This document shows positions 17,828 through 34,741 of a stretch of DNA of 39,866 nucleotides, piece by piece. Every line of letters starts with the position of its first letter. Position 1 is the first letter of the stretch. Origin of the DNA: Rhizobium sp. NFR03 (GTDB lineage: Bacteria > Pseudomonadota > Alphaproteobacteria > Rhizobiales > Rhizobiaceae). The position numbers and the translations under genes were made by a program. The notes beneath the pieces were generated by a model. That model saw only the letters and a list, made by a program, of their open reading frames with translations. It had not been told where the DNA came from and did not search any database. The stretch spans positions 1 through 39,866 of the forward strand of contig NZ_FOGR01000015.1 in NCBI RefSeq assembly GCF_900111275.1, in the 5' to 3' direction.

Positions 17828-18118
17828 ATGCAAAGACGAATGTTCAGCCGCGAGTATAAGCTAGAAGCGGTGAAACTGGTCAGGGAACGTGGGGTCACTG
17901 TTGCCCAGGCGGCCCGTGACCTTGATGTCCACGAGAATGTGTTGCGCAAATGGGTTCGGGAATACGGCGACGATCCCAGCCAGTCTTTTCCTGGAAAAGG
18001 CCAGATGAAGCCGGAGCAGGTTGAGATCGAGCGGCTCCGTCGTGAAGTTGCCAAGCTGAAGGCGGAGCGCGATATCTTAAAAAAGGCCGCAGCCTACTTT
18101 GCCAGGGACGCGATATGA
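17828..18118 (+). CDS. IS3-family transposase OrfA
   Basis: 96 residues. A helix-turn-helix at about residues 6-45 (FSREYKLEAVKLVRERGVTVAQAARDLDVHENVLRKWVREY) recognises the IS ends. A leucine-zipper-like heptad region follows (EIERLRREVAKLKAERDILKKAAAYF) and mediates OrfA/OrfAB pairing. The slippery A_AAA_AAG at 18079-18085 near the 3' end would shift ribosomes into orfB. Its stop overlaps the orfB ATG (ATGA at 18115-18118). Confidence 0.95.
   Translation: MQRRMFSREYKLEAVKLVRERGVTVAQAARDLDVHENVLRKWVREYGDDPSQSFPGKGQMKPEQVEIERLRREVAKLKAERDILKKAAAYFARDAI
18079..18085 (+). promoter_or_regulatory. Slippery heptamer for programmed -1 frameshifting
   Basis: A_AAA_AAG in the orfA frame (tta aaa aag). 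The -1 frame is open from here into orfB, so a full OrfAB fusion can be made. Confidence 0.75.
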
Positions 18119-18975
18119 AGTTCGCGTTCATTGCAAAGCACCGTTCGATCTGGCCGGTGGCATGGCTCTGCGAAGCGCTGGGGGTTTCTCGTTCAGGTTT
18201 CCATGCATGGCTCAATCGTTCTCCGAGCGAACACGCCCGCTATGATGAGGTTCTGCTGGACAAGATCACGCAGAGCTTCAAATCCAGCGATCGAACTTAT
18301 GGTGCTCGCCGCGTATGGCACGACGTGCTGGAAGAAGGGTTATCCTGTGGCCTCCATCGTATTGAGCGGCTGATGCGTTTGAATGCGCTCAGGGCCAGGC
18401 CAAGACGGCGGGGCTTGCCAAAGGATGCCGGTGACCGTGCCGTCATCATGCCGAACGTGCTGGACCGTCAGTTCATGGCAGAGCGGCCGAACCAGAAATG
18501 GGTGGCCGACTTCACCTATATCTGGACCGCAGAAGGCTGGCTGTATGTCGCCGCTGTTATTGACCTGTTCTCACGCCGGGTCGTCGGCTGGTCGATGAAT
18601 GCCAACATGACGGCCCAGCTCGTCACAGATGCGCTGATCATGGCGATCTGGCGTCGAGGAAAACCAGATGCGCTCCTGCATCATTCCGATCAAGGAAGCC
18701 AATATACGAGCGAGCAGTTCCAGCGCCTCATGGGCGATCATGGCATTACCTGCTCTATGAGCCGCTCTGGAAATGTCTGGGACAACGCTGCGATGGAGAG
18801 CTTCTTCTCGTCACTGAAAACGGAGAGAACAGCTCGCAAGGTCTACAGGAGCAGGAACGACGCCAGAGCAGATGTGTTCGATTACATCGAGCGCTTCTAC
18901 AATCCGAAGCGCCGCCACTCGACACTGGGTTATCTCAGCCCAAATGATTTTGAAACCAAGGTGGGATTAGCTTAA
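18115..18975 (+). CDS. IS3-family transposase OrfB (DDE catalytic domain)
   Basis: 286 residues. An HTH_21 region (LCEALGVSRSGFHAWLNR, then YGARRVWHDVL) precedes the rve-type catalytic core. The DDE residues are visible in KWVADFTYIWT (first Asp), LLHHSDQGSQYTS (second Asp) and NVWDNAAMESFFSSLK (Glu). The C-terminus YIERFYNPKRRHSTLGYLSP is standard. Full length and undamaged. The stop codon lies in the right terminal repeat. Confidence 0.95.
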   Translation: MKFAFIAKHRSIWPVAWLCEALGVSRSGFHAWLNRSPSEHARYDEVLLDKITQSFKSSDRTYGARRVWHDVLEEGLSCGLHRIERLMRLNALRARPRRRGLPKDAGDRAVIMPNVLDRQFMAERPNQKWVADFTYIWTAEGWLYVAAVIDLFSRRVVGWSMNANMTAQLVTDALIMAIWRRGKPDALLHHSDQGSQYTSEQFQRLMGDHGITCSMSRSGNVWDNAAMESFFSSLKTERTARKVYRSRNDARADVFDYIERFYNPKRRHSTLGYLSPNDFETKVGLA

Positions 18976-21294: not shown

Positions 21295-22032
21295 TCAATC
21301 CTGCGCGGTCGGTCGCACCACAATGCTGCCTATTTCAACATCACCGGGTTGGTCGATCGCAAAGCCTATCGCCCGTGCGACTGCGTCCGGCGAAATGGCT
21401 AGCTCTTTCTTGCGCTTGAGGATCGCTGCGCGGATCTCCGGATCGGCTATAGAGGCATCGGCAAAGCTGGTGTCAATAAAACCCGGCGATATCTCCGTGA
21501 CGCGCAGGTTCCGCCCAGATTCTTGCCGCAAAGCTTCACTGGCTGTACGCAAAGCATTCTTGGTCGCAGCGTAAACACCCATCGCAGGAACAATCTTGAG
21601 CCCTGCGGTTGATACGATATTGATGACATGCCCGTTGCCTTGACGCGCAAAGACGGGCATGGCGGCGGCGATGCCATATAGCGCGCCCTTCAGGTTCACG
21701 TCGATCATCTCATCCCAGTCATCGACTCGAAGAGCATCAAAGGGCGAAAGCGGACCGACGCTGGCATTGTTGATGATGACGTCAAGCCCTCCGAAGCGTG
21801 TGCAGGCTAGCGTCACCAGATTGTCGAGATCCGCGCGTCTGGTCACGTCGATGACCTGATAGACCGCCTGGCCGCCTCCAGCTGCAATTTCCCGCGCCGT
21901 AGCCGCAATTTCCGCTTCACTTCTTGCGCCAAGGACAAGGCGTGCGCCCAGCGCAGCGAGGTAAATGGCGGTGGCCCGGCCAATGCCACGGCCGGCGCCA
22001 GTGATGGCGATAATCTTTTGATTTATGGTCAC
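21295..22032 (-). CDS. Short-chain dehydrogenase/reductase
   Basis: 245 residues, classical SDR length. TGAGRGIGRATA is the cofactor glycine motif, NNASVG the structural NNAG equivalent, IVSTAG carries the catalytic serine, and YAATK the catalytic Tyr-x-x-x-Lys. An arginine after the second strand (GARSEAEI) suggests NADP preference. The substrate is unknown; the PGFIDTSF segment resembles the YdfG/clavaldehyde-dehydrogenase-like group. It is divergent from an AraC gene 52 bp away, which probably activates or represses it, an arrangement frequent in rhizobia. Confidence 0.9.
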   Translation of the reverse strand: MTINQKIIAITGAGRGIGRATAIYLAALGARLVLGARSEAEIAATAREIAAGGGQAVYQVIDVTRRADLDNLVTLACTRFGGLDVIINNASVGPLSPFDALRVDDWDEMIDVNLKGALYGIAAAMPVFARQGNGHVINIVSTAGLKIVPAMGVYAATKNALRTASEALRQESGRNLRVTEISPGFIDTSFADASIADPEIRAAILKRKKELAISPDAVARAIGFAIDQPGDVEIGSIVVRPTAQD

Positions 22033-22084
22033 GGCAAGGCCTTTATCTTGTATGGGAAAGCCAAATCTATGCAGTGATGGACGG

Positions 22085-23026
22085 ATGATCTATGTTCAGA
22101 AAACCATGGCTTTATCGCAATCCGCCAAAGATCGAAGTGATCCCTTCGCTGACGTTCTCGCTACGCTCGGGACGCGTAGTGTTCGTGGGACCAGTCTTGA
22201 TGCTTCGGGAGAATGGGCGGTCGCTTTTGACGGGCGAAGGCGGTTTAAGTTCGTTGCCGTGACACGGGGCCGCTGCTGGCTTCTGCTTCCGGATCATGCG
22301 CCAGAAGCGCTCGTCGAAGGAGATATCGTTCTCCTCACCGATACACGCTACGTGGTGGCCAGTGATCCGGCTCTCAAACCAATCGATGGCACGCCCCTCT
22401 ACGCATCGCCCGGACACGACGCGGTTCGTCTGGCCACAGGAGACGAGACTGCATTGATTGGCGGGGGGAGCGGCTTTGCGGTTGGCAGCGCCGACTTCGT
22501 TCTGGATGCACTCCCGACATTTATGCGTGTCGATCGGGCATCAGCTACTGCCGGATCTGTCGCCGCCACGCTGGAATCTCTGAGGACGGAGGTAGCCCAA
22601 GCGGCGCTCGGTGGTTCACTTGTTACTGAGCGGCTGGCAGAAATCCTCGTTATAGCAGCCGTCCGCGTCTTCGTCGCCGCTAGCCCAACGACCAGTGTCG
22701 GATGGATCACCGCCCTTGCGGATCCAAAGATCGGCAAGGCGCTCAGACTGATGCACGCGGATATTGCCTATCGCTGGACGGTGCCAAGGCTGGCATCGGA
22801 GGTTGGCATGTCGCGTTCGGCATTCACGCAGCGTTTCACTGAGCGTGTCGGTCGCCCGCCCCTCGACTACCTGATCCATTGGCGGATGGTTCTTGGACAA
22901 CAGAAGCTCAAGGACGGTCACACCGTTGCAGCGGTTGCAACAGCAGTAGGCTATAGCTCGCAAAGCGCCTTTTCTCATGCCTTCAGGCGAGCCCTTGGTA
23001 GAACGCCACGCTCAGATCCGGCTTGA
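22085..23026 (+). CDS. AraC-family transcriptional regulator (cupin_6 type)
   Basis: 313 residues from ATG 22085 (22106 is an alternative). The N-terminal half (FADVLATLGTRSVRGTSLDASGEWAVAF, FKFVAVTRGRCWLLLP, LVEGDIVLLTDTRYVVASDP) is the cupin_6 ligand-binding domain. The C-terminal double helix-turn-helix covers about residues 220-305 (IAYRWTVPRLASEVGMSRSAFTQRFTERVGRPPLDYLIHWRM, then VAAVATAVGYSSQSAFSHAFRRALG). It is divergent from the SDR gene and almost certainly regulates it. Confidence 0.9.
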   Translation: MIYVQKTMALSQSAKDRSDPFADVLATLGTRSVRGTSLDASGEWAVAFDGRRRFKFVAVTRGRCWLLLPDHAPEALVEGDIVLLTDTRYVVASDPALKPIDGTPLYASPGHDAVRLATGDETALIGGGSGFAVGSADFVLDALPTFMRVDRASATAGSVAATLESLRTEVAQAALGGSLVTERLAEILVIAAVRVFVAASPTTSVGWITALADPKIGKALRLMHADIAYRWTVPRLASEVGMSRSAFTQRFTERVGRPPLDYLIHWRMVLGQQKLKDGHTVAAVATAVGYSSQSAFSHAFRRALGRTPRSDPA

Positions 23027-23208
23027 TGCTTTTTGATCAGAGTGGTGGGCAGATCTTACGAGAGGCAGTGGTCGTTGCAGACTTACAACTTGTCAAATCC
23101 CGTTTGGGCGCGTTCCAAATCTACGCATTGCCTTTGAGAGGAAGCGCTGCGATGTGCGACTCGATGCTTCTGGAACTGGCAGTGAATTGTATCGGTCGCC
23201 GCCAGACG

Positions 23209-24054
23209 TCAGGATTGCTCTTTGAAGTCACGCGGCGAAACGCCATGATAGCTGCTGAAGGCTCGGCTGAACGCAAATTCGGATAGATATCCGACGTTTT
23301 CGGCCACCGTTCGCACGGTTGCTGCGCGTCGAAGCATATCAGCAGCGACATGCATTCGGCATCGCGTCAAATATCTTAGTGGGGTATCTCCAGTATCAGC
23401 CTTGAAACGCCGCGAGAACGCGGCGCGCGACAAGCCAGCCAGCGACGCCAGCTGGTCGACAGTCCAGGCATGTCCCGGTGCCTGCTGCATCTTGACTATC
23501 GCCTTGTTGACGTAGGGATCGTCCCGTCGAGTGTGTAGAGGACGACCATCGATAGAGACGACCGAACAATGACGGACAATCAGCACGTAAAGGGCTTCAA
23601 ACAAGTGGCTGCTGATCTCATCACGACCAGAGTTCTCAAAGCGGAACGCATTGCCGATCAACTCAAGTATGGCTGAAAAGTTCGTGTCGTTGCAAATGTC
23701 GTGGCGCGCGATTTTCGAGACAGGAGGCGCGGCAGAGAGGTGCTTGAGGAACACCGGGCTTCCTGCGAAACTCGCACAAATTACCACTGCTGTATTTGTG
23801 GTCGCAAGCACGGTTGCGACGGGACCCGGAGGCTCTTCGCCGTTTTCCCAGTGGACGAAGTAGATTTCTCCCGTGTCCAGATGGGTCACAGTTGGATCGT
23901 TCTTTACCTCGTAACGTCCCTCGACGACGATGAAAATAAAGATCCGTCCTCCGCACCGGAATTCTATCGGCTCACCAAAGGACTGCCGTAGTGTCGCAAC
24001 GCCGATTAAATTCGGCCGTAACGCAACCACCCAGTTGGTCAGAACATCAGCCAT
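23209..24054 (-). CDS. AraC-family transcriptional regulator
   Basis: 281 residues. The N-terminal cupin-like domain reads IEFRCGGRIFIFIVVEGRYEV and HLDTGEIYFVHW. The C-terminal AraC DNA-binding domain is at about residues 180-278 (AWTVDQLASLAGLSRAAFSRRFKADTGDTPLRYLTRCRM, then VRTVAENVGYLSEFAFSRAFSSYHGVSPRDF). It is divergent from the exported SnoaL-like gene at 24171 across 116 bp, so that gene is the natural target. The two AraC genes at 22085 and 23209 converge and are not recent duplicates. Confidence 0.9.
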   Translation of the reverse strand: MADVLTNWVVALRPNLIGVATLRQSFGEPIEFRCGGRIFIFIVVEGRYEVKNDPTVTHLDTGEIYFVHWENGEEPPGPVATVLATTNTAVVICASFAGSPVFLKHLSAAPPVSKIARHDICNDTNFSAILELIGNAFRFENSGRDEISSHLFEALYVLIVRHCSVVSIDGRPLHTRRDDPYVNKAIVKMQQAPGHAWTVDQLASLAGLSRAAFSRRFKADTGDTPLRYLTRCRMHVAADMLRRAATVRTVAENVGYLSEFAFSRAFSSYHGVSPRDFKEQS

Positions 24055-24170
24055 TCCGGTTTCTCCACATCAAGACAGTGTGCAATGTCTTCGATACGCA
24101 CAGACATACTCCCTCAGACTCTCCAGAGCTAAACTGCGGTGGCAAAACTACCCAACACTGAGGAGGTTTT

Positions 24171-25106
24171 ATGATGGGACGACTGTCTGTTGCCGCAACG
24201 GCTCTTTTCATAGCGGTATCTGCCCCGGGGGCGCATTCCGCCGAGCGCGTATTTCCCGACATCGCTGAAACGGCGAAGGCCGACCCGCAGACCGTGGATT
24301 TCTTCCGGGCCTATTTCACTGCCAAAAGCCAGCACGACGTCAATGCAACGATGTCGTTTTTCTCCCCGCAGCTTTTGACTTATACCGACGCTATCCTGGG
24401 CTGGCCACTGAATGACTTCAATGCGTTGAAGGCTGTTTTTGCGCAGTACATGCCAAAGTGGGGAAAAGGGAAATCCTATCCATTCCGCATCATCGGTGGC
24501 CCGGACAGCGCAGTCGTCGCGTTTATCGACACGCCGGAGCTTTTTGGCGGGGAGATAAGACTTCTCGGCGCCGTGGACTTCAAGGATGGAAAGATTATCC
24601 GTTGGGCAGACTACTGGGACAGTACGGGCTTCCCAGCTGACGTCTATAATGCGGTTCGCACGCCGTCTGACAAGTTCCCCACCGAGTTCCGTGAGAAGGA
24701 AATAAGCGGAAACGCTGCCGCGCGTATAATCGACGTAGCGACCGACGTTCAGAAGGCTCTGACGAGTAGCGATGGCGCGGACATAGGAAAACATCTGTCG
24801 GCGGATGTGATTTATGAGGATTTCGCCCTTCGCACTCAGCTTCTCGGAAAGGATGCGACGACGCGGTATCTGCAGAGGATCCAGAGTGAAGCGCCCTTCG
24901 CAAAGGGTTCCCAACTGATGCACATCGTGGGAGGCGAAAAGGGCGGCGGGTTCGAGTGGCGCAGCGCCGACGGCAAGATCCGCGGAATCACCGCCCTGGA
25001 GCTTGACGACCAAGGGCTCGTTTCGCGTATCACCACAACTTATGACGGCCGCCTGATATCCGCTCCTACACACCGGGAGCTGGTGAGACTGTCTGCCGAG
25101 GAGTAA
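24171..25106 (+). CDS. Exported protein with two SnoaL/NTF2-like domains
   Basis: 311 residues. MMGRLSVAATALFIAVSAPGAHSAE is a Sec signal peptide (cleavage after HSA). Domain 1 (about residues 35-165: VDFFRAYFTAKSQHDVNATMSFFS, ALKAVFAQYMPKW, DGKIIRWADYWDS) and domain 2 (about 185-305: VQKALTSSDGADIGKHLSADVIYEDFA, LELDDQGLVSRITTTYDGR) are both NTF2-like cone folds. Family members are ligand-binding proteins or simple isomerases/hydrolases; a periplasmic two-domain form is uncommon. GAGGAGG ends eight bases or less before the start. Controlled presumably by the divergent AraC protein. Confidence 0.75.
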   Translation: MMGRLSVAATALFIAVSAPGAHSAERVFPDIAETAKADPQTVDFFRAYFTAKSQHDVNATMSFFSPQLLTYTDAILGWPLNDFNALKAVFAQYMPKWGKGKSYPFRIIGGPDSAVVAFIDTPELFGGEIRLLGAVDFKDGKIIRWADYWDSTGFPADVYNAVRTPSDKFPTEFREKEISGNAAARIIDVATDVQKALTSSDGADIGKHLSADVIYEDFALRTQLLGKDATTRYLQRIQSEAPFAKGSQLMHIVGGEKGGGFEWRSADGKIRGITALELDDQGLVSRITTTYDGRLISAPTHRELVRLSAEE

Positions 25107-25188: not shown

Positions 25189-25581
25189 TCATTCGAAATG
25201 CTGCGCGGCGGCCTGCCAGAGAGCGACCGAAGGGTAGTCCTTGCCAGTCCAATGCTCAAGTTTTCTGGCAAATTCCCGCTGGAACGAAAGAGGGCCGTGT
25301 TTTGCCATGTAGTCATCGTCGTAGATGGCGATAAAGATCGTCAGCGACAGGAAGAAATGGACTCCCATTTCAAATAGCGCCACGTAGTCGTGGTCGATCA
25401 GCGCGTTGCGCTCAGCGTCGGTCAGAAAGTTGACAGTCGAAATCTCCACATCACTGAGCTTCGGGCCGATCGATTGCTCCCAGCTGGCGACGAGCGACCG
25501 CGAGTCCTCCTTGTAACGGCGTAGCAGGTCTGGATCCCGGTCGACGGTGAAGAGGAACTTGTTCACATAATACTTGCTCAT
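25189..25581 (-). CDS. LigA-type small subunit of an extradiol dioxygenase
   Basis: 130 residues, the size of the protocatechuate 4,5-dioxygenase alpha chain (about 139). YYVNKFLFTVDRDPDLLRRYKEDSRSLVASW, LTDAERNALIDHDYVALFEMGVHFFLSLTIFIAI and an HGPLSF segment are the LigA helical pattern; the subunit covers the active site of the LigB subunit. The ATG overlaps the ligB-like stop (ATGA, 25578-25581), so the two are translationally coupled. The order B then A is the reverse of the usual ligA-ligB arrangement. It is the last gene of the leftward catabolic operon. Confidence 0.88.
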   Translation of the reverse strand: MSKYYVNKFLFTVDRDPDLLRRYKEDSRSLVASWEQSIGPKLSDVEISTVNFLTDAERNALIDHDYVALFEMGVHFFLSLTIFIAIYDDDYMAKHGPLSFQREFARKLEHWTGKDYPSVALWQAAAQHFE

Positions 25582-26438
25582 GCAGTTGCTCCTTCCGGAT
25601 ACCAGGTAAAGTAGGCCTCCATCGTGTGGAAGAGTTCCAGATTGTCGTGATAGGCTGACGGGATTGGCCCGGCGATACCCATCATCAGGATCAGGTCCAT
25701 AAAGCCGTGCGTGGCGTTGCCGCTAGCATCCATGCTTTCATGGGTGACATTTTCTAAGATCGCATCGATATTGCCGGTCGACAGCCATTCGATCGCCTTG
25801 CGGTCGAATTCGGGATCCGGCCCGGTCTCCTTAAACTGGCGTGGGCCGCCAAGTTCCAGCGACAGGTGGCCGCTGCCAATAGCGGCGATGCGCTTATCGG
25901 AAGGATAGGCGTCGATGATCTCGCGGATGGCGCGGCCGAGATCCCAGAACCGCCTGGGTGAAGGCAGGGGCGGCACGAAGATGTTAGTATAAATCGGCAC
26001 CACAGGCAGGTCGGCATCCGGCCGTGTAGTGATGATCGGGCAGATGATTGAATGATCTAGCTTCAGTTCGTGGCTAAAGGCGAAGTCGAAGCCGCGGTCC
26101 ATCAGGCCCTGATGCAGAAAGTTTGACAGTTCCTCATGGCCTTCCAGCACATATTTCGGAATGCCGAACTCGCGCTCCTCGTTGTAGAAGGTCGCGTCGT
26201 AGCGGGGCGCCTTGCCGATCATGAAGGTCGGATAGTTGTCGAGGAAGAACTGGTGGAAGTGGTCCGAGCCGATCATCACCAGAATGTCCGGGTTGGCGCG
26301 GGTCAGCGTCTCGCGATAGGCCTCGATCTTGCGCTTCCATTCGGCCGCCTGCGGGATCTGCTGTTCCGGCGGCATGGTTGTCGCCTTCAGGTAAAAGGGG
26401 TGGTGCGTGGTCGCAAGGACTGCTGCTAAAGTTGCCAT
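25578..26438 (-). CDS. LigB-type class III extradiol ring-cleavage dioxygenase, catalytic subunit
   Basis: 286 residues. The metal and acid-base positions are visible: TTHHPF near the N-terminus, GSDHFHQFF at about residues 59-67, LDHSIICPII in the middle, GSGHLSLEL (in place of the GTGGLSH of LigB) and the C-terminal ATHGFMDLI helix. This class uses Fe(II) to cleave catecholic rings next to the hydroxyls; substrates include protocatechuate, gallate and bicyclic phenols. ATG 26438 has GGAGGAG upstream, so the longer frame to 26513 is rejected. The gene overlaps the LigA gene and lies 38 bp after the CoA-transferase. The exact ring substrate cannot be told from sequence. Confidence 0.88.
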   Translation of the reverse strand: MATLAAVLATTHHPFYLKATTMPPEQQIPQAAEWKRKIEAYRETLTRANPDILVMIGSDHFHQFFLDNYPTFMIGKAPRYDATFYNEEREFGIPKYVLEGHEELSNFLHQGLMDRGFDFAFSHELKLDHSIICPIITTRPDADLPVVPIYTNIFVPPLPSPRRFWDLGRAIREIIDAYPSDKRIAAIGSGHLSLELGGPRQFKETGPDPEFDRKAIEWLSTGNIDAILENVTHESMDASGNATHGFMDLILMMGIAGPIPSAYHDNLELFHTMEAYFTWYPEGATA

Positions 26439-26476
26439 ATTCTCCTCCCAAGTGCTTCGTCTGTCGGACCTGATGA

Positions 26477-27655
26477 TCAATGAGCCGGCGCGGCCGGCTG
26501 CATTTCCGGCCACTTTTGCGGATCGCTTCCCAGTGCTGAGCGGATCTGGTCACCATGCTGGTTGACGACCGGTGCAGCGCGCACGGCGCTGGCGTGCTTT
26601 CCATCGAACGAATAAGCCGGCCGGACCGTCTGCTCGGCGCCCTCGATGCGTCCCGCGACCGGCACGAACATGCCCAGATGCTGCGCCTGCGGATCGTTGA
26701 CCACCTCGGATATGTTGTTGATCGGGGCGAAGGGCACATCGAAGCGGTCGAACCGCTCCAGCCATTCGCTGCGGTTGCGTGTCGCGAAGATGGCGTTGAG
26801 CTCGGCGTTCAGCGCCTCGTAGTTGTCGATCCGCTTCAGGCGCTGCGAGAACCGGTCATCGGCGGCGAGCGCCTGGCCGTCGACCGCCTCGACAAGCGCG
26901 TCCCAGAACTTGTCGAGCGACGACAGGTGGAAGGCGAACAATTTTTCGTCCTTGCAGCGGACGATGAAGGCCTGTGCCAGGCGAGGGCGGTCGACGCCGC
27001 TCGGCTCTTCGCCCAGCGCAAAGTAGCCCATGAACGGCTCGACGGCGAAATGCATCATCGCCTCGATCATCGAGATGTCGATGCGCTTGCCCTTGCCGGT
27101 CACGCCGCGCTCCACCAATGCTGCCGATATGCCGAGCGCGGCATAGATGCCGGTGATCGCATCGGCAAGCGCCGGGCCGATGAAGCGCGGCTGCTGCGGA
27201 TCGATGGCGACGCTGAGAAAGCCGCTGACGGCCTGCGCGACCGAATCGTAGACCGGCCGCTGCGCATAGGGTCCATCGGGGCCAAAGCCGCTGATCGAGC
27301 AGTAGATCAGCTTCGGATTGATCCGGGCGAGCGTCTCGTAGTCGGCCCCGAAGCGGCCGGCGGCGCCGGGCCTGAAATTCTGGATGTAGACGTCTGCCTG
27401 GGCGACCAGCTGGTAGAAGACGTCGCGGTCCTGTTCGTTCTTGAGATCAAGGCCGATCGCGCGCTTGTTGCGGTTGTAGGCCTGGAAATGGGCGCTGTAG
27501 AAACCCGTCTTGAAGCTGCGGTAGGGATCGCCGTTGCCGGGCGATTCGATCTTGATGACGTCGGCGCCGAGATCGGCGAGCATCATGCCGGCGCAAGGGC
27601 CCGTGATGAAGGTGCCCTGTTCGACGATGCGAATATGATTGAGAGCGGTCAGCAT
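26477..27655 (-). CDS. CaiB/BaiF family (class III) CoA-transferase
   Basis: 392 residues, full length. IRIVEQGTFITGPCAGMMLADLGADVIKIESPGNGDPYR is the family start, with YNRNKRAIGLDLKNEQDR, IQNFRPGAAGRFGADYETL and ISGFGPDGPYAQRPVYD following. GPALADAITGIYAALGIS carries the aspartate that forms the acyl-enzyme in formyl-CoA transferase. The enzyme moves CoA between carboxylic acids by an ordered mechanism. It starts nine bases after the citryl-CoA-lyase-like gene, so its acid product may be the substrate of that lyase or its CoA donor. Confidence 0.9.
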   Translation of the reverse strand: MLTALNHIRIVEQGTFITGPCAGMMLADLGADVIKIESPGNGDPYRSFKTGFYSAHFQAYNRNKRAIGLDLKNEQDRDVFYQLVAQADVYIQNFRPGAAGRFGADYETLARINPKLIYCSISGFGPDGPYAQRPVYDSVAQAVSGFLSVAIDPQQPRFIGPALADAITGIYAALGISAALVERGVTGKGKRIDISMIEAMMHFAVEPFMGYFALGEEPSGVDRPRLAQAFIVRCKDEKLFAFHLSSLDKFWDALVEAVDGQALAADDRFSQRLKRIDNYEALNAELNAIFATRNRSEWLERFDRFDVPFAPINNISEVVNDPQAQHLGMFVPVAGRIEGAEQTVRPAYSFDGKHASAVRAAPVVNQHGDQIRSALGSDPQKWPEMQPAAPAH

Positions 27656-27664
27656 GTCCGGATC

Positions 27665-28477
27665 CTAGTTCTCGTTCGCGACGAAACCCGTTGGCGCGCG
27701 ACCGTCGTAATCAATGGCGCCTGCTGCGGCGTGGGACATGATGAAGCCGATCGGCCGGGTCTGTTCTTCCAGCAGATGGCCGATAAGGCCGGCGGTGCGT
27801 GCCAGAAGCGGCACTCCCTTCAGCGCCAGCAGTGGGTAGCCGGCATCGAGCAACACACACGGAATGGCACTCGAGACATTCATGACTAGCGGTTTGCCGA
27901 TGATGTCAGGAATCAGTCTTTCGATTGTTTTTGCAATATCGCAGTGGATGCCGGACAGCCCCAGTTCGGCGGCAATGTCGAGAAGGCGCTCGGCGCGCGG
28001 ATCGCTGCCCTTGTGCAGTGGATGTCCGTATCCCGGCAGCGGCTTGCGGTCGTCCTTGTAACGCCGCATCAGCTTTTCGGCGGCCGCTTCCGTGGAGCTG
28101 CCGTCGGCTTCCTTCAGTTCGCGGACGTCGCGGAAGAAGGCGCCGGCCGATTCCGAGGCACCGAGAATGACCGAGCCGCAGCCCAGCAGACCTGCAGCGA
28201 CGGCGCCCTGGACGGCTTCCGGCGATGCGGCAAGCGTCATGCGCGCCGCCTGGACGCTCGGCACCAGCCCATGCTCGGCAATGGCGACAAGCGTCGCGTC
28301 CAGCATGCGGCGCTGCTTGTCGTCGGGCAGCGTGCCGGCCACCAGCAGCCAGGTATATTCGGTAAAGGAGATCGAGCCGACCAGGTCGTTTACCAGGTCG
28401 TGGCCGCGGACGATGATCGTGTCGGGATTGGAGGTGCAGATCGCCTGGTAGGGGGCTGATTGCTTGCCGATTTTCAT
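27665..28477 (-). CDS. Short citrate-synthase fold protein, citryl-CoA-lyase-like
   Basis: 270 residues, much shorter than citrate synthase (about 430) and close to the stand-alone citryl-CoA lyases and related acyl-CoA lyases. IIVRGHDLVNDLVGSISFTEYTWLLVAGTLP starts the domain; PLPGYGHPLHKGSDPRAERL contains the catalytic-histidine motif of the citrate synthase fold; RPIGFIMSHAAAGAIDYDG ends it. Lyases of this type split 3-hydroxy acyl-CoA tricarboxylates. ATG 28477 has gagga upstream; a TTG at 28501 is less likely. It sits between the FMN reductase and the CoA-transferase, so a CoA-dependent cleavage of a ring-fission product is a strong possibility. Confidence 0.85.
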   Translation of the reverse strand: MKIGKQSAPYQAICTSNPDTIIVRGHDLVNDLVGSISFTEYTWLLVAGTLPDDKQRRMLDATLVAIAEHGLVPSVQAARMTLAASPEAVQGAVAAGLLGCGSVILGASESAGAFFRDVRELKEADGSSTEAAAEKLMRRYKDDRKPLPGYGHPLHKGSDPRAERLLDIAAELGLSGIHCDIAKTIERLIPDIIGKPLVMNVSSAIPCVLLDAGYPLLALKGVPLLARTAGLIGHLLEEQTRPIGFIMSHAAAGAIDYDGRAPTGFVANEN

Positions 28478-28504
28478 GCGGAAATCCTCAGATGCTGACA
28501 AAGG

Positions 28505-29080
28505 TCAGGGTGTGATGTCGGTGGTGTCGGTAAAGCGGCGGACCCATCGCTCGAACTGGTCCATGTAGCCCTGCAGAAAGATGCGGGTGTCGTCATTGGT
28601 CACGTCGCCTTCCGGCGTGATGAGGCCGGGCACCAGGTGGATGAAGGCTTCCGGCTGTCCCATCACCGCCACGTCGAGGCAGCCAAGCACGGCCCGCAGG
28701 TGCTGCTGCGCGGCGGCCGTGCCGATGCGCCCGTAGGAGGCGCCGGCGATCGCTGCGGGCTTGCCGGCCCAGACGCTGGCGCCGAACGGGCGGGACGCCC
28801 AGTCGATGGCGTTCTTCAGCATCGCCGAGATAGAGCGGTTATGCTCCGGCGTCAGGATCAGCAGGCCGTGGGCCCAGCGGATCTGCTCTTTCAGCCGCTC
28901 GGCGGCATCGGGAAACCCATGATCGAGACGATCCTGGTCGAAGAGCGGCAGGTCGTGGATCGATACCCAGTCGAATTCGATGTCGTGGCTGGCGAGCCGG
29001 GTCAGCGCCAGCGCCAGCAGCCTGTTGAGCGATGCCTGATGGGCGCTGCCAACGATGACGGTGATCTTCAACCGTGTCAT
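28505..29080 (-). CDS. NADPH-dependent FMN reductase
   Basis: 191 residues, flavodoxin-like. IVGSAHQASLNRLLALAL is the FMN phosphate loop, LILTPEHNRSISAMLKNAIDWASRP the core family signature, and PAAIAGASYGRIGTAAAQ the second flavin loop. The protein would supply reduced FMN or reduce quinones. Its presence at the head of the dioxygenase operon is odd, because no flavin-dependent monooxygenase is encoded nearby; a ring-hydroxylating partner may lie elsewhere. GGGAGGG precedes ATG 29080. The first gene after the IclR-type promoter at 29130-29159. Confidence 0.9.
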   Translation of the reverse strand: MTRLKITVIVGSAHQASLNRLLALALTRLASHDIEFDWVSIHDLPLFDQDRLDHGFPDAAERLKEQIRWAHGLLILTPEHNRSISAMLKNAIDWASRPFGASVWAGKPAAIAGASYGRIGTAAAQQHLRAVLGCLDVAVMGQPEAFIHLVPGLITPEGDVTNDDTRIFLQGYMDQFERWVRRFTDTTDITP

Positions 29081-29204: not shown

Positions 29205-30020
29205 TTATCGCGCCGTCGGCGGAGCCGGTGCCAGCGAGTGAACGAGTGCCGGGAAACGGGCAAAAAGCTGGGAGAGACGGTTGGCAGCAAGCCGCAGTTC
29301 CGGCAGGCGCTGCTCGACCAGTTCCTCGGGAGTTAGTCGTGGCGTATAGCCCGAACTGTTGATCGAGCAAACGACGCGGCCAGTCGTATCCTTCACCGGC
29401 ACGGCGATTGCAGTAATGCCGTAGTCGAGCTGGTCGACGGTGATCGAGTAGCCGCTCGCCCGCACCTCCACCAGCATCCTGCGCAGTTCCGCCTCGTCCG
29501 TCACCGTGTAGTCGGTGAGCTTGACCGGGCTGTAAGCCTGGAAGTAGCGGTCGAGGTCCTCCCCCGGCAGCGCGGCGAGCAGCGTCCGACCCATCGACGT
29601 GGCATAGGCCGGATAGGTGACGCCGAGGCTGGCGTTGCGACGCACACCGAGGCTTTCTGACAGATGGGCGACGTAGAGGACGTTTGTGCCGTCGAGCACC
29701 GCCATGTTCGCGGCATCGCCGAACTGAGAGGTGATCCGGTGAAGCTCGGGCGTCACCGCTTCCTCCACCTTGAAAGCGTTGAGATAGGACGAGCCGAGCG
29801 ACAGGATGCGGGGCGCCAGCAGGAAGTGCTTGTTGTGGCGGCGAATGAAGCCGAGTGCCTCGAGGGTCAGGACGTTGCGCCGGACCGTGGCGATCGACAT
29901 GCCGACCTTGCGGGACAGCTCGGCGAGCGTCATTTCCGGATCAGTGGCGTCGAAAGCTTCCAGGACGGACAGCCCCCTCGCGAGGGCTTCGACGAAGTCG
30001 GACGACTTGCTGTCGATCAT
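29205..30020 (-). CDS. IclR-family regulator, PcaU/PobR/PcaR type
   Basis: 271 residues. The winged helix-turn-helix (about residues 10-70) reads FVEALARGLSVLEAFDATDPEMTLAELSRKVGMSIATVRRNVLTLEALGFIRR, matching the aromatic-catabolism branch (PcaR, PobR, PcaU). The effector domain (SLGSSYLNAFKVEEAVTPELHRI, GVTYPAYATSMGRTLLAALP, AIAVPVKDTTGRVVCSIN) covers the rest. ATG 30020 has aggag seven bases upstream; the longer frame to 30161 crosses the divergent promoter. It lies between the two operons it probably controls, each with one copy of a 24-bp site. An aromatic acid is the likely effector. Confidence 0.92.
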   Translation of the reverse strand: MIDSKSSDFVEALARGLSVLEAFDATDPEMTLAELSRKVGMSIATVRRNVLTLEALGFIRRHNKHFLLAPRILSLGSSYLNAFKVEEAVTPELHRITSQFGDAANMAVLDGTNVLYVAHLSESLGVRRNASLGVTYPAYATSMGRTLLAALPGEDLDRYFQAYSPVKLTDYTVTDEAELRRMLVEVRASGYSITVDQLDYGITAIAVPVKDTTGRVVCSINSSGYTPRLTPEELVEQRLPELRLAANRLSQLFARFPALVHSLAPAPPTAR

Positions 30021-30059
30021 AGGATTCTCCTGCCTTTTCTTTTTCGTTCGCACAAGGGA

Positions 30060-30089
30060 TTGACAAGCGCAAGACCTACTGCCTATCGT
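30060..30089 (+). promoter_or_regulatory. Promoter of the ABC transporter operon
   Basis: TTGACA (30060-30065), 18-base spacer, TATCGT (30084-30089), with the IclR-type operator from 30094. Confidence 0.6.
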
Positions 30090-30093
30090 TAAG

Positions 30094-30117
30094 CGAATAT
30101 TTATTCGTACAGCGAAT
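30094..30117 (+). promoter_or_regulatory. IclR-type operator, transporter copy
   Basis: cgaatatttattcgtacagc then gaat. The repeat of cgaat/attcg halves gives an inverted-repeat character. It overlaps the expected transcript start, four bases after the -10. The second copy is at 29105-29128. Confidence 0.75.
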
Positions 30118-30137
30118 TTCTTGGGAGGGAAAAAGCG

Positions 30138-31406
30138 ATGAAGACGAGACGGGACTTTCACAAGCTGATGGCGGCCACGGCCGCTGGACTTGCCGCTCCG
30201 GCGATCCTCGGCAGCAAGGCGTTTGCGCAGGACAAGCCGATCCGGGTAGGGGCGAGCGTGTCGCTCACTGGTCCACTCTCGAGCACCAAGAACGGCCTGA
30301 TCGGTTACGAGCTGTGGCGCGACGATGTGAATGCCGTTGGTGGCCTACTCGGTCGCAAGGTTGAACTGATCACCTATGACGACCAGAGCAGCGCCGCCAA
30401 CGTCCCGGCGATCTATTCGAAGCTCGTCGACGTCGATGCCTGCGACGTGCTCTTCTCGCCCTACGGCGCCAATCTTTCCGCCCCGGTCATGCCGTTCATC
30501 AAACAGCGCGACCTGTTCATGATCGGCATGTTCGGACTTGCCGGCAACGACGTGGCGAGGCACGACAAGTTCTTCCACAGCGGCCCCTGGGGGCCAAATT
30601 CAGGCCGCGACTGGGCCCGGGGCTTCTTCGATCTCGCCAGGGCGCAAGGCGTGAAGACGGTCTCGATCATCAATGCTGACCTTGAGTTTTCCAAGAACGC
30701 TGCCAAGGGTGGTGCAGAGGTTGCCAAGGAATACGGCATGGAGGTCGTGTTCAACCAGAGCTATCCGCCGAATACCAGCGACTTCTCGTCGATCATCCGC
30801 AACATCAATGCCGCCGATCCCGACGCGATCTTCATTGCATCCTATCCAGCCGACAGTACGGCGATCATCCGCGGCGTCAAGGAAATCGGCATTTCCGACA
30901 AGGTGAAGATCTTTGGCGGCTGCATGATCGGTCCACAATATGGCGCGCTTCTGAGCTCGCTCGGCCCAGAGTTGAACGGCCTCGTCAACTCGCACACCTT
31001 CGTGCCGGAGCCGACGATGCAGACGCCGCATATCAAGTACTTCTTCGACCGCTACACGCCGATTGCGCTGAAGCAGGGCGTCGACCCGCTCGGCTACTAC
31101 ATCCCGCCATTCTATTACGTCGCAGGACAGCTGGCTGCCGCGGCTATCACCGGATCCAAATCGGTTGATCCGGCTAAGATGGCTGAATTCCTGCACGCCA
31201 ATACGGTCGACACGATTGCTGGCCCGACCGCCTTCAACGAGATCGGCGACTGGAAGGAGCGGCGGGTGCTGATGGTCCAGCTGCGCGGCATCAAGGGCAA
31301 TGATCTGGAACAGTTCCGCAGTCCCGGTCGCCAGGTAATCCTGGATCCGCCGTCACTGAAGACAGGGGATCTTGCCGGTCCCTACAACAAGGCTCGCGCC
31401 GGCTGA
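30138..31406 (+). CDS. ABC transporter substrate-binding protein, branched-chain amino acid (LivK) type
   Basis: 422 residues. MKTRRDFHKLMAATAAGLAAPAILGSKAFA is a twin-arginine-like signal peptide (T-R-R-D-F-H-K) ending in an AFA cleavage site. The mature part begins PIRVGASVSLTGPLSSTKNGLIGYELWRDDVNAVGGLLGRKVELITYDDQS, the type I periplasmic-binding fold of the Leu/Ile/Val and aromatic-acid importers. The protein would capture the pathway substrate in the periplasm. GGGAGGG precedes the ATG. It heads the five-gene import operon with its own IclR-type operator, so an aromatic acid rather than an amino acid is the likely ligand. Confidence 0.92.
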   Translation: MKTRRDFHKLMAATAAGLAAPAILGSKAFAQDKPIRVGASVSLTGPLSSTKNGLIGYELWRDDVNAVGGLLGRKVELITYDDQSSAANVPAIYSKLVDVDACDVLFSPYGANLSAPVMPFIKQRDLFMIGMFGLAGNDVARHDKFFHSGPWGPNSGRDWARGFFDLARAQGVKTVSIINADLEFSKNAAKGGAEVAKEYGMEVVFNQSYPPNTSDFSSIIRNINAADPDAIFIASYPADSTAIIRGVKEIGISDKVKIFGGCMIGPQYGALLSSLGPELNGLVNSHTFVPEPTMQTPHIKYFFDRYTPIALKQGVDPLGYYIPPFYYVAGQLAAAAITGSKSVDPAKMAEFLHANTVDTIAGPTAFNEIGDWKERRVLMVQLRGIKGNDLEQFRSPGRQVILDPPSLKTGDLAGPYNKARAG

Positions 31407-31451
31407 CAATCGGCCACGTCATTGTCTCTAACGTTCCAGAGAGCCGGCGTG

Positions 31452-32351
31452 ATGCTGGCTCAGGGCCCTATCATGCTATCAATCGACATTCTGGTGAATG
31501 CCCTGGTGACCGGGATCCTGCTGGGCAGCGTCTATGCGGCGCTCGCGCTTGGTCTCGCGATCACTTTCGGTATTCTGCATATACCCAATATCGCTCACCC
31601 GACGCTGGTCATTGCGGGCGCCTTCTTTGTCTATACGCTGGCCCAGTGGGGCGTGGACCCGATCCTTGCGGCGCTGGTCGGCCTCGTTCCCTTCTACCTT
31701 CTCGGCGTTGCGCTCTACTTGTTCTACTCGCGGCTCTTCGAGCGTCGCGGCGGCGCCAATGTCCTGCAGAGCCTGACGCTGTTTTTCGGCCTGTCGCTGG
31801 TGATTGAGATCCTGCTGGCGCTGAGCTTCGGCTCCGAGCTGAAATCGGTCAACGTCTTCTATATCGGCTCCAGCCTGCGGCTCGGCATCCTCACGATTCC
31901 CTATCGACTGCTGATCCCGGCGCTTCTCGCGCCGGTGATGATCGGCGCCGTCTGGCTCTATCTCAGCCGCACCAATACCGGCACGGCCATCCGCGCCGTG
32001 GCGCATGAGGAGCGGGCCCTGTCGATTGCCGGGCTCAACCCGGCGTCCATCAAGCGGCACGCCTTCGGCATCGCCACCGCGACCGCCGTGGTCGCCGGCG
32101 CGGCACTGATTATGGTCGGCCCGATCGAACCGTTCTCCGGGCGCTTCCAGATCGGCCGTGTGTTTGCCATCGTCGTGCTGGCAGGCATGGGCTCGATCCC
32201 CGGTAGCCTGGTGATCGCCATCGTTATCGGCATCTCCGAGGCGCTGGTCTCCAGCTACCTCAATCCTTCCTGGTCTCCCGGCGTTGCCTTCGCGATCCTG
32301 CTTCTCGGCCTCGCACTCCGCCCCCAGGGCCTGTTCGGAGCCGCGCGATGA
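31452..32351 (+). CDS. ABC transporter permease, LivH type
   Basis: 299 residues from ATG 31452 (31473 is an equally possible start; a TTG at 31422 lacks a ribosome site). About eight membrane helices, starting with ILVNALVTGILLGSVYAALALGLAITFGILHIPNIAHPT, the typical LivH first segment. The cytoplasmic EAA-like loop is TAIRAVAHEERALSIAGLNPASIKRHAFGIATATAVVAGAA. Its stop overlaps the LivM start (ATGA, 32348-32351). Confidence 0.9.
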   Translation: MLAQGPIMLSIDILVNALVTGILLGSVYAALALGLAITFGILHIPNIAHPTLVIAGAFFVYTLAQWGVDPILAALVGLVPFYLLGVALYLFYSRLFERRGGANVLQSLTLFFGLSLVIEILLALSFGSELKSVNVFYIGSSLRLGILTIPYRLLIPALLAPVMIGAVWLYLSRTNTGTAIRAVAHEERALSIAGLNPASIKRHAFGIATATAVVAGAALIMVGPIEPFSGRFQIGRVFAIVVLAGMGSIPGSLVIAIVIGISEALVSSYLNPSWSPGVAFAILLLGLALRPQGLFGAAR

Positions 32352-33298
32352 CCAAGAATTCCATCCTCTTCCTCGTCGGCATCGCCATCGTTCTGGTGCT
32401 CGGTTTCCTGATGCCCTGGGTCCTGAAGAACCCGTTCTACTTCTTCGTCGGCTACGTCGTCCTGCAATATGTGACGATCGCCACCGGCTGGAACATCCTC
32501 GGCGGCTATGCGGGATACATCAATTTCGGTGCGGCGGGCTTCTTCGGCGCGGGCGTTTATCTGTCGGCCTTCCTGTTCACGACGCTCGGCCTGCCGCTGC
32601 CGCTTTGCATTCTTGCTGCGGCCATCTTCGGCGCGGTTCTCGGCCTGCTGATGGGCTATCTGACACTGCGCATCCAGGGTGTCTACTTCGCCATCGCGAC
32701 GCTTGGGCTCGTTGTGGTGCTGGAAACCATCGTCCACAACATCCCGGCGCTCGGCGGCGCCAGCGGCATGGCCGTCTACGGGCCGCGTCAGCCGTTCTGG
32801 AGCCCTGGGCCGTCGCAATTCAATTTCACCGTCATGCTGATCATTGCGGCTGCTGCCGTGACGCTCGCCCGGTTCGTCGAGATCTCGTGGATCGGCCGCG
32901 GGCTGCGTGCCGTACGGGCGAGCGAGGATGCGGCCGAATGTTCCGGCGTGCCGACGCTGCGCCTGAAGCTGCTCGCCTGCGCGCTAAGCGGAGCGGTGCT
33001 TGCGGCGGCCGGAGCGCCCTATCCGTTCTACACCTCCTATATGGAGCCGGTCACCGCCTTCAGCCTGATCATCGGCCTCAATGCCATCGCCATGCCGTTG
33101 ATCGGCGGCACCCGCAGCTGGGTCGGCCCGGTCCTCGGCGCATTGTTGCTCGCCTCAGTACAGCAGATCGCCACGGTGACCATATCCTCCGAACTTAACA
33201 TCCTGTTCGTCGGCCTGGTGCTGATCGCCTTCGTCGCCTTCGCGCCGGGCGGACTGGCCGAACTCTTTGGCCGCAAGCAGAGGAGGGCGCGGTCATGA
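32348..33298 (+). CDS. ABC transporter permease, LivM type
   Basis: 316 residues with about ten hydrophobic segments. GWNILGGYAGYINFGAAGFFGAGVYLSAFLF, LTLRIQGVYFAIATLGLVVVLETIVHN and the cytoplasmic loop GLRAVRASEDAAECSGVPTLRLKLLACALSG are LivM signatures. It pairs with the LivH protein to form the channel. Starts overlap the LivH stop, and its stop overlaps the start of the ATPase gene by four bases. Confidence 0.92.
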   Translation: MTKNSILFLVGIAIVLVLGFLMPWVLKNPFYFFVGYVVLQYVTIATGWNILGGYAGYINFGAAGFFGAGVYLSAFLFTTLGLPLPLCILAAAIFGAVLGLLMGYLTLRIQGVYFAIATLGLVVVLETIVHNIPALGGASGMAVYGPRQPFWSPGPSQFNFTVMLIIAAAAVTLARFVEISWIGRGLRAVRASEDAAECSGVPTLRLKLLACALSGAVLAAAGAPYPFYTSYMEPVTAFSLIIGLNAIAMPLIGGTRSWVGPVLGALLLASVQQIATVTISSELNILFVGLVLIAFVAFAPGGLAELFGRKQRRARS

Positions 33299-34008
33299 GC
33301 GAGACGATCCTGTCCCTGAAGGGGGTCGAGAAGATCTTCGGATCCTTCCGGGCGCTTGGTCCGGTCGATCTCGACGTGTCGGCCGGGGAACGGCTCGGCA
33401 TCATCGGTCCGAACGGCGCCGGCAAGACAACGCTGATCAACTGCATCACCGGGGTTTATGCTCCTGACAAGGGTTCGGTACATTTCCAAGGCCGCGATAT
33501 TTCCCGGATCGAGGCCCACAAACGCGCGCGGCTCGGCATCTCGCGCAGCTTCCAGATCCCGCGTCCCTTCACCGGCATGACGGTTCTCGAAAACCTTCTG
33601 GTGCCGCTCGATTACTGCCATGTCGACGGCAGCAAAGCGGAGCGGGCCCACGCCGTGCTGGCAAGCGTCGGGCTGTCGGGCCGCACGGCGGATGCCTCCG
33701 AAACCCTGTCGCAGCTCGAACTCCGCAAGCTCGAGCTTGCCCGCGCCCTCGTCGGCAATCCGAAGGTGCTGATCGCCGACGAGGCGATGGCCGGACTGTC
33801 GGACGAGGAGATCGACGAGGTTCTGGAAATCCTCTTCGCGCTTAACCGCTCCGGCGTGGCGGTTATCATGATCGAGCACATCATGCATGCGGTGATGCGC
33901 TTTTCGCAGCGGATCGTCTGCTTCGAGACCGGCCGGCTGATCGCCACCGGCACCTCGGCGGAGATCGCCGACAACCCGCTCGTTCAGAAGGTGTATTTCG
34001 GTGAATAG
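33295..34008 (+). CDS. ABC transporter ATPase, LivG type
   Basis: 237 residues. Walker A is GPNGAGKTT, Walker B is KVLIADEAMAGL and the branched-chain-type ending VIMIEHIMHAVMRFSQRIVCFETGRLIATGTSAEI is present. The signature motif is unusual: LSQLELRKLELARAL instead of LSYGxQRxLEIARAL, i.e. the central glycine is missing, which could lower ATPase activity at one of the two sites. Transport with one degenerate site is common in other ABC families. It overlaps the next gene by 8 bases. Confidence 0.92.
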   Translation: MSETILSLKGVEKIFGSFRALGPVDLDVSAGERLGIIGPNGAGKTTLINCITGVYAPDKGSVHFQGRDISRIEAHKRARLGISRSFQIPRPFTGMTVLENLLVPLDYCHVDGSKAERAHAVLASVGLSGRTADASETLSQLELRKLELARALVGNPKVLIADEAMAGLSDEEIDEVLEILFALNRSGVAVIMIEHIMHAVMRFSQRIVCFETGRLIATGTSAEIADNPLVQKVYFGE

Positions 34009-34741
34009 GCTGATCATCGACAATTTGTCCGCCGGCTACGGCGCGGTCTCCGTGCTGCGCAACGTCTCGCTAGAACTCAACGAGGGCGAGATGGTGGCGC
34101 TGCTCGGCATGAACGGCAACGGCAAAAGCACGCTGCTCAACTGCGTGCTGGGCTTCGTGCGCGCCAGTGCCGGGCGGATCCTGCTCGAGTGGAACGGCAA
34201 GAGCAGGGATCTCACCAGGCTTCAGCCGCACGAGATCGTCCGGCTTGGTCTGTCGATAGTGCCGGAGGGTCGCCGGCTGGTGCCTAACATCTCGGTCGAG
34301 GACAATCTCAAGCTTGCAGGCAGCAATCCGGTGGTCCGCGACCGGATGACCCAAAACTTGTCATACTGTTTTGACACGTTTCCACTTCTCCTGGAGCGGC
34401 GCCGGCAGATCGCCTCGACCATGAGCGGCGGACAGCAGCAGTTACTGGCAATCGCCCGATCGCTGATGACCTTGCCGAAGATCGTCGTCATCGACGAGCC
34501 GTCAGTCGGCTTGGCTCCGATCGTGGTGCGCGATGTGCTGGCTGCCATCGAACATCTGCGCGCCAAGAGCGGCATGACCATCCTGATGGCAGAGCAGAGC
34601 TTCTTCCAGGCGATCGATGTTTCGTCGCGGGCTTATATCCTAGCGCACGGCAGCATTCAGCGGGAATTTAGGCGTTCCGAAGGCGAGATAGCTCATGAGG
34701 ATATCCGCAAGGCAATGCTAGGAGGAGTCATTCAGCACTAG
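34001..34741 (+). CDS. ABC transporter ATPase, LivF type
   Basis: 246 residues. Walker A GMNGNGKSTLL, signature MSGGQQQLLAIARSL, Walker B KIVVIDEPSVGLAPI and the H-loop region give a complete ATPase; it carries the intact signature that the LivG partner lacks. Start GTG at 34001 inside the end of livG is the only one that keeps the N-terminus MNRLIIDNLSAGYGAVSVLRNV. It closes the import operon; no terminator with a T-run is seen after it. Confidence 0.9.
   Translation: MNRLIIDNLSAGYGAVSVLRNVSLELNEGEMVALLGMNGNGKSTLLNCVLGFVRASAGRILLEWNGKSRDLTRLQPHEIVRLGLSIVPEGRRLVPNISVEDNLKLAGSNPVVRDRMTQNLSYCFDTFPLLLERRRQIASTMSGGQQQLLAIARSLMTLPKIVVIDEPSVGLAPIVVRDVLAAIEHLRAKSGMTILMAEQSFFQAIDVSSRAYILAHGSIQREFRRSEGEIAHEDIRKAMLGGVIQH

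Follow-up and report, generated by a model that had tools for sequence, protein, structure and literature searches.

Gene content and organization

The window analysed here, a stretch of 39,866 nucleotides from Rhizobium sp. NFR03 (contig NZ_FOGR01000015.1, positions 1 to 39,866), carries on its minus strand genes encoding, in this order, an FMN-dependent reductase, a citrate-synthase-fold protein that bears the family name 'citryl-CoA lyase' (the CCL-like protein, or CCL), a CaiB/BaiF type III CoA-transferase, a LigB-fold catalytic subunit, and a LigA-like small subunit (Table 1). The gaps between these genes are 3, 9, 38, and -4 bases, and therefore the five genes are probably one transcription unit. 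A first-pass annotation of this DNA had read them as a CoA-dependent meta-cleavage pathway, in which a LigBA dioxygenase of the protocatechuate/gallate type works with a CoA-transferase and a citryl-CoA lyase. Every gene that it listed was found in its place and on its strand, and its view that the genes share one CoA-dependent pathway is well supported by their linkage in relatives, by their correlated divergence, and by a conserved Asp165 in CaiB. The interval that it had drawn was right in its genes and left out the IclR regulator and the divergent ABC transporter (29205-34741), which the nearest relatives have as part of this conserved unit.

Table 1. Features of the operon and its surroundings in the window
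Feature	Coordinates	Strand	Match
FMN-dependent reductase	28505..29080	-	PF03358, 131 bits
Citrate-synthase-fold 'citryl-CoA lyase' (CCL-like)	27665..28501	-	NF004868, 313.9 bits (cut-off 193)
CaiB/BaiF type III CoA-transferase	26477..27655	-	PF02515, 365.1 bits
LigB-fold catalytic subunit	25578..26438 (start placed by alignment; the open reading frame itself reaches 26513)	-	PF02900, 104 bits
LigA-like small subunit	25189..25581	-	PF07746, 18.6 bits, under the cut-off of 25.3
IclR regulator	29205..30020 (start inferred; the open reading frame reaches 30161)	-	TIGR02431, 241.7 bits, under the cut-off of 284.75
ABC solute-binding protein (Peripla_BP_6)	30138..31406	+	profile match
Branched-chain-amino-acid-type ABC permeases and ATPases, four genes	31422..34741	+	family matches (search covered two of the four genes, 31422-32351 and 33295-34008)
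SnoaL-like protein with N-terminal signal-like stretch	24171..25106	+	PF12680, 29.2 bits

Conservation and linkage of the module

With one genome scanned per species, 452 confirmed relatives of the window LigB were found, and counts out of 80 refer to the best 80 of these (L041-L120), which are distinct among themselves. The LigB alignment has 86 rows, in which three loci stand twice (L033=L059, L036=L098, L038=L101), so that 83 are distinct; L031 and L050 are also the same locus, as are L037 and L096, and L011 and L179 are one gene. Rows of CCL and CaiB were kept at 70% coverage, which left 80 and 78, respectively. Neighbours were counted by tblastn within 8.5 kb of LigB, with two queries each for CCL and CaiB; 10 of the 80 stretches are under 17 kb, and absences in those are less certain. 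LigA was found at 80/80 loci, CaiB and CCL at 74/80 each, IclR at 71/80, and an amidohydrolase at 63/80. At 20 control LigB loci, CaiB was found once (34% identity) and LigA, CCL, IclR, and the amidohydrolase were not found, although the queries were the window family's own proteins and would miss an IclR that is distant or a LigA that is canonical, so that only the CaiB and CCL figures make a fair contrast; three of the control stretches are just 10.5-12 kb long, and two genomes supply two loci each. CaiB and CCL occur together at 74 of the 80 family loci and at none of the 20 controls, and chance linkage of the two with LigB is rejected on this control. The FMN reductase, for which the window protein was the only query, was counted at 17/80 loci, which is an undercount, since gene calls placed it at 38 of the 86.

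Gene orders were called with a home-made open-reading-frame heuristic, which chose some antisense or over-long frames. The order in Neorhizobium is FMN reductase-CCL-CaiB-LigB-LigA-amidohydrolase, many marine Alphaproteobacteria have the module in two divergent arms with TRAP transporters, and many Actinobacteria have the order CaiB-CCL-LigB-LigA. The carriers, many of them soil and marine bacteria, belong among others to the Rhizobiales, the Rhodobacterales, and the Actinobacteria (Arthrobacter, Microbacteriaceae, Occultella, Microlunatus). Correlations between the distance matrices, in which species history is included, were 0.80 for LigB and CCL, 0.82 for LigB and CaiB, and 0.98 for CCL and CaiB, and in each case 0 of 500 permutations reached as high a value. 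The search for conserved neighbourhoods that the first-pass annotation had called for thus yielded one linked and co-diverging module. An ordinary dioxygenase sharing an operon with CoA genes of no relation to it is hardly credible, given this co-divergence, the several gene orders, the spread over Proteobacteria and Actinobacteria, and the contrast with the controls; what speaks for such chance neighbours is that 6 of the 80 carriers (L058, L064, L065, L078, L100, and L113) have neither CaiB nor CCL in the vicinity. Of these, L058 and L064 are metagenome-assembled genomes, and L100 and L113 have a neighbourhood in common. At L113 (277-9807), LigB lies beside two P450s, a GMC oxidoreductase, a DAHL histidine kinase, and a di-haem peroxidase-like protein; GMC and P450 genes also adjoin CCL-CaiB at L165.

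Mean identity within the module is 81% for LigB, 70% for LigA, 56% for CCL, 53% for the amidohydrolase, 52% for CaiB, and 51% for IclR. LigB is thus the most conserved member, which suggests one fixed central substrate. The window LigB is the sole PF02900 match in its 5.4-Mb genome, six genomes of the same genus gave no match to it at E 1e-20, and it was matched in 10 of 201 genomes (its own included) at 74-100% identity. An integrase-core (transposase-like) gene, presumably IS3-like, lies at 18115-18975, about 6 kb from the operon. The scattered occurrence of LigB and this nearby gene fit horizontal gain of the module. Among the matches listed for open-licence PMC papers, as judged by title and opening of the abstract, no description of the module was found.

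The active site of LigB

The AlphaFold2 model of LigB (predicted local distance difference test score, pLDDT, 84) matched LigAB (1bou) and DesB in Foldseek with query TM-scores of 0.85 and 0.84, and LigB passed no NCBIfam cut-off of a named dioxygenase (best 130.3 against 290). The model of the LigA-like protein (pLDDT 84.5) also had DesB as its best match, a weak one with a probability of 0.90 but an E value of 0.59. In DesB, as far as an excerpt of the study goes, the iron is surrounded by His12, His59, Asn57, and Glu239, His124 positions the substrate, and His192 is the likely base (PMC3962378). The window family has in common with LigAB and DesB, which are class III extradiol enzymes, the fold, the two iron His residues (His12 and His60, corresponding to DesB His12 and His59), and the second active-site His (His129, corresponding to His124), and these are kept in 86/86 rows. 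In contrast, the position of the iron Glu is Gly245 and that of the base His192 is Leu194 in every row, a new His191 is present, ligB precedes ligA, and the LigA-like protein stays under its Pfam cut-off. His13, His62, His191, Glu195, and Asn241 are likewise invariant in the 86 rows, and the active site appears to be under selection because His12, His60, His129, His191, Glu195, and Asn241 never vary. An ordinary protocatechuate or gallate dioxygenase, as the first-pass annotation had it, is rejected on these residues.

In a comparison set of 39 LigB rows, the iron Glu is kept in 36, and the three rows without it are the window and one gene that is present twice (L011/L179); His191 occurs in this set only in these Glu-less rows, which are not independent. 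Three more rows (L122, L181, and L182) keep the iron Glu and lack the base. From the alignment we infer that His191 may replace the Glu as third metal ligand, giving a three-His site. The second Glu-less LigB (L179, 5348-10428) is 36% identical to that of the window, has a GHMSN motif, and is followed by a small open reading frame of its own; an NMT1-type ABC transporter is found further along this stretch. A few kb from this LigB is an FAD monooxygenase-like gene, which passed the cut-off of PRK06847 and was under those of all named relatives, such as the urate, 3-hydroxybenzoate, and salicylate hydroxylases, and its presence favours an oxygenase role for the Glu-less LigBs.

Alternatively, LigB could be no oxygenase at all but an enzyme with a non-redox metal (a hydrolase, an isomerase, or a lyase), so that CoA activation would follow a hydrolytic ring opening in a non-oxidative pathway. 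The absence of both the iron Glu and the base, the extra invariant His13, His62, His191, and Glu195, and the amidohydrolase beside 63 of the 80 loci would all suit such a protein. The reverse swap has been published, since KpiC, of the amidohydrolase family, is a ring-opening 3,4-dihydroxypyridine dioxygenase according to an excerpt of that work (PMC7356986), so that fold leaves open which protein opens the ring. However, the FAD monooxygenase-like genes, the quinone-type reductase, and the PcaR/PobR-like IclR point to hydroxylated aromatics, and we regard this alternative as unlikely.

The extradiol dioxygenase cluster on plasmid pCB3060_4 of Rhizobium sp. CB3060 (L121), a Leucaena isolate, has a PydA-like LigB and is likewise rhizobial and catabolic, with a LigB-family protein and a transporter. 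Its LigB has both residues that the window LigB lacks, the iron Glu and the base His, and is followed by an alpha/beta hydrolase and an FAH-family protein; the annotation of the 12.5 kb read shows neither a CoA-transferase nor a citryl-CoA lyase. PydA belongs to mimosine degradation, as stated in the excerpt cited above (PMC7356986), and a 3-hydroxy-4-pyridone (mimosine) pathway was rejected for the window because of this difference in active site and downstream genes.

The CoA-transferase, the CCL-like protein, and the reductase

CaiB has a solved relative in 4ed9 (E 1.4e-64). Asp165, presumably the catalytic Asp known from formyl-CoA transferase, is conserved in 78/78 rows, and CaiB passed no cut-off of a transferase of known substrate (best 242 against 750).

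The CCL-like protein has a solved relative in the citryl-CoA lyase 6hxp (E 1.7e-39). The catalytic residues of citrate synthase (CS) are His274, His320, and Asp375. In all 80 CCL rows, the position of His274 is Val, Ile, Phe, or Tyr and that of Asp375 is Ser or Ala, and one of the three residues, the His320 equivalent His160, is kept. Arg169, Arg235, Glu245, and Glu246 are invariant in the same rows, and with His160, Arg169, and Arg235 the oxaloacetate-binding half of the CS site is retained. The window protein thus resembles 6hxp and the proteins of nine under-cut-off CCL loci (L152-L160) in the CS C-terminal fold, the His320-type His, and the carboxylate-binding Arg positions, whereas those nine loci keep the equivalents of His274 and Asp375 and the window protein has neither. 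An ordinary citryl-CoA lyase, which the first-pass annotation had assumed, does not fit these losses. They are also not confined to this operon: NF004868 had 20 matches over the cut-off, the window's own included, among 289 alphaproteobacterial genomes surveyed, and both residues are lost at all 19 loci read (L131-L149). In contrast, of 11 loci read that score under the cut-off, 9 retain the two residues and 2 retain the Asp. This makes the family name doubtful well beyond the window operon, and, judged by these residues, 'citryl-CoA lyase' may be wrong for the whole NF004868 subfamily. At L162, the neighbour of the NF004868 gene encodes an AMP-binding C-terminal domain (29 bits), and at other NF004868 loci the homologue adjoins CaiB; with one or the other beside it, the CCL-like protein is likely to act on a CoA-thioester.

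The same losses, in the 80 rows as well as at the 19 loci, would be expected if the CCL-like protein were a CoA-ester hydrolase, a hydratase, or a binding partner of CaiB instead of a lyase. The missing Asp presumably corresponds to Asp1026 of ACLY. In an excerpt of a study of that enzyme, the Asp1026Ala variant is inactive, for which the authors argue an allosteric role (PMC10115795). The invariance of His160, Arg169, Arg235, Glu245, and Glu246 would follow from an oxo-acid half of the site that still works, and a protein that is not a lyase seems quite unlikely to us.

For the FMN reductase, the nearest solved proteins are 3u7r, 1rtt, and YieF (3svl), and its best relatives include chromate reductases, so that the lack of a partner monooxygenase, which had been considered odd, is not odd. 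On this similarity, the protein is probably an NAD(P)H reductase of the quinone/chromate kind, and it could protect a quinol.

LigK and the 4,5-cleavage route

The first-pass annotation had proposed that gallate or protocatechuate undergoes 4,5-cleavage to 4-carboxy-4-hydroxy-2-oxoadipate (CHA) and that the lyase splits the CoA ester of this compound in place of the aldolase. It was correct in finding no aldolase, as the CHA aldolase LigK is under its cut-off throughout the window genome (best 112 bits against 304.5), and the operon contains no hydratase, dehydrogenase, or tautomerase, although a genome-wide search for LigC, LigI, and LigJ was not made. In contrast, 12 genomes with a window-type LigB or a CCL-CaiB pair were tested, and LigK passed the cut-off in 10 of them; the other genome without it (G048) gave no match. 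In G041, LigK is on the contig of the module, about 17 kb from LigB. At L169 (2246-11442), a canonical protocatechuate 4,5-cleavage cluster adjoins CCL-CaiB-IclR; LigA, LigB, and CCL-CaiB-IclR close by are in common with the window, and L169 differs in having a canonical LigB site, a GFO/IDH-type (LigC-like) gene, an Amidohydro_2 gene, and a LigK of its own. LigK in these 10 genomes, L169 included, indicates that replacement of the aldolase by CCL-CaiB is not a general rule, and this candidate role is weakened accordingly; what stands of the proposal is that the window genome has no LigK over the cut-off.

The proposed route as a whole appears very unlikely, given that the LigB active site is not of the gallate/protocatechuate kind, that LigK is present in most of the genomes tested, and that the genes for the intermediate steps are absent from the operon. 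The window genome also has two adjacent intradiol dioxygenase genes, and thus protocatechuate is probably cut ortho there. In favour of the route, besides the two genomes without LigK and the position of CCL-CaiB at L169, are LeuD-type aconitase small subunits encoded 3' of LigA (L079, 13770-14369; L082, 9866-10465; L089, 11245-11877), which could belong to a hydratase; no evident large subunit adjoins them. A tricarboxylate substrate for the module is a guess.

Neighbouring genes and entry enzymes

In the profile search, the IclR regulator was closest to PcaR/PcaU/PobR, yet under the TIGR02431 cut-off. The Peripla_BP_6 gene has the same divergent position in several Neorhizobium and Rhizobium relatives. 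On the other side, the SnoaL-like protein and AraC regulators adjoin the operon (22025-25106), and a SnoaL-AraC pair is also found 3' of the operon in L031 (= L050), a carrier without an amidohydrolase nearby; the SnoaL-like protein there is a homologue with 66% identity to that of the window. It is possible that the SnoaL-like gene is associated with the operon.

The amidohydrolase of the relatives passed the cut-off of NF006056 and is an enzyme of the atrazine-chlorohydrolase/deaminase type. Among loci without it, an MhpA-type FAD hydroxylase (NF004829 over cut-off) lies beside IclR in L069, L076, and L089, a CocE/S15-type hydrolase is present in L076, L079, and L082, and L079, L082, and L089 have the LeuD-type small subunit described above. 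Neither the amidohydrolase (best E 2e-6) nor the MhpA-type hydroxylase (best E 2e-11 at 28% identity) has an ortholog in the window genome. Such varied entry enzymes, feeding one conserved LigAB, fit several routes that converge on one ring substrate. Furthermore, a MetE-like (Meth_synt_2) protein, whose family identity was searched on L038 only, joins the module at L039, L059 (=L033), L081, L096, L101 (=L038), L102, and L118, and it might demethylate the substrate.

Proposed pathway and its implications

The explanation that we favour, with a probability of about 0.42, is that these genes form a catabolic module, spread by horizontal transfer, in which one acid with a ring, probably of an enol or catechol type, is degraded by a LigAB-CaiB-CCL route. 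The dedicated transporter would import the substrate, or in relatives the amidohydrolase or the MhpA-type hydroxylase would make it, and the quinone-type reductase would keep it reduced. LigAB would then open the ring at a re-ligated site with His12, His60, and His191 instead of His-His-Glu, and CaiB, of which the family and the Asp are evident, would transfer CoA to the fission product. The CS-fold protein would split the resulting thioester to give an alpha-keto acid and an acyl-CoA. For this it would rely on the oxaloacetate-binding half of its site (His160, Arg169, and Arg235) and not on the residues that enolise acetyl-CoA. IclR would regulate the unit. Our guesses for the substrate are ascorbate-like reductones, mycosporine/gadusol, hydroxypyrones, hydroxypyridones, and polyhydroxybenzenes.

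Several observations weigh against this explanation. Loss of both the base and the Glu may abolish the oxygenase activity of LigB, because a His192Phe variant of DesB, which lacks the base, had no detectable activity in the excerpt of that study (PMC3962378). Without the residues that activate acetyl-CoA, the CCL-like protein may cleave no C-C bond. In addition, a search at E 1e-30 found no CCL in the genomes of the six loci without CaiB and CCL nearby, whereas it was positive in 6/6 control genomes whose loci carry CCL, and the CCL step is thus usual, not universal. The more specific proposal, that a LigAB-fold oxygenase with three-His iron and a CS-fold lyase without the Claisen residues constitute an undescribed CoA-dependent ring-fission pathway that is widespread in Alphaproteobacteria and Actinobacteria, with two known folds each adapted to a new active site, is tentative, and the odds are against it.

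At least 83 loci carry a would-be 'extradiol dioxygenase' and a would-be 'citryl-CoA lyase' without the catalytic residues behind those names, and the carriers probably number several hundred genomes, judging from the 452 LigB relatives. The module is a concrete and small gene set in which a substrate could be sought. If the favoured explanation is true, it adds a CoA-dependent route of ring fission, a new metal site in the LigB fold, and a CS-fold enzyme with half of the classical site, and it could explain the use of ring compounds by a carrier without LigK.

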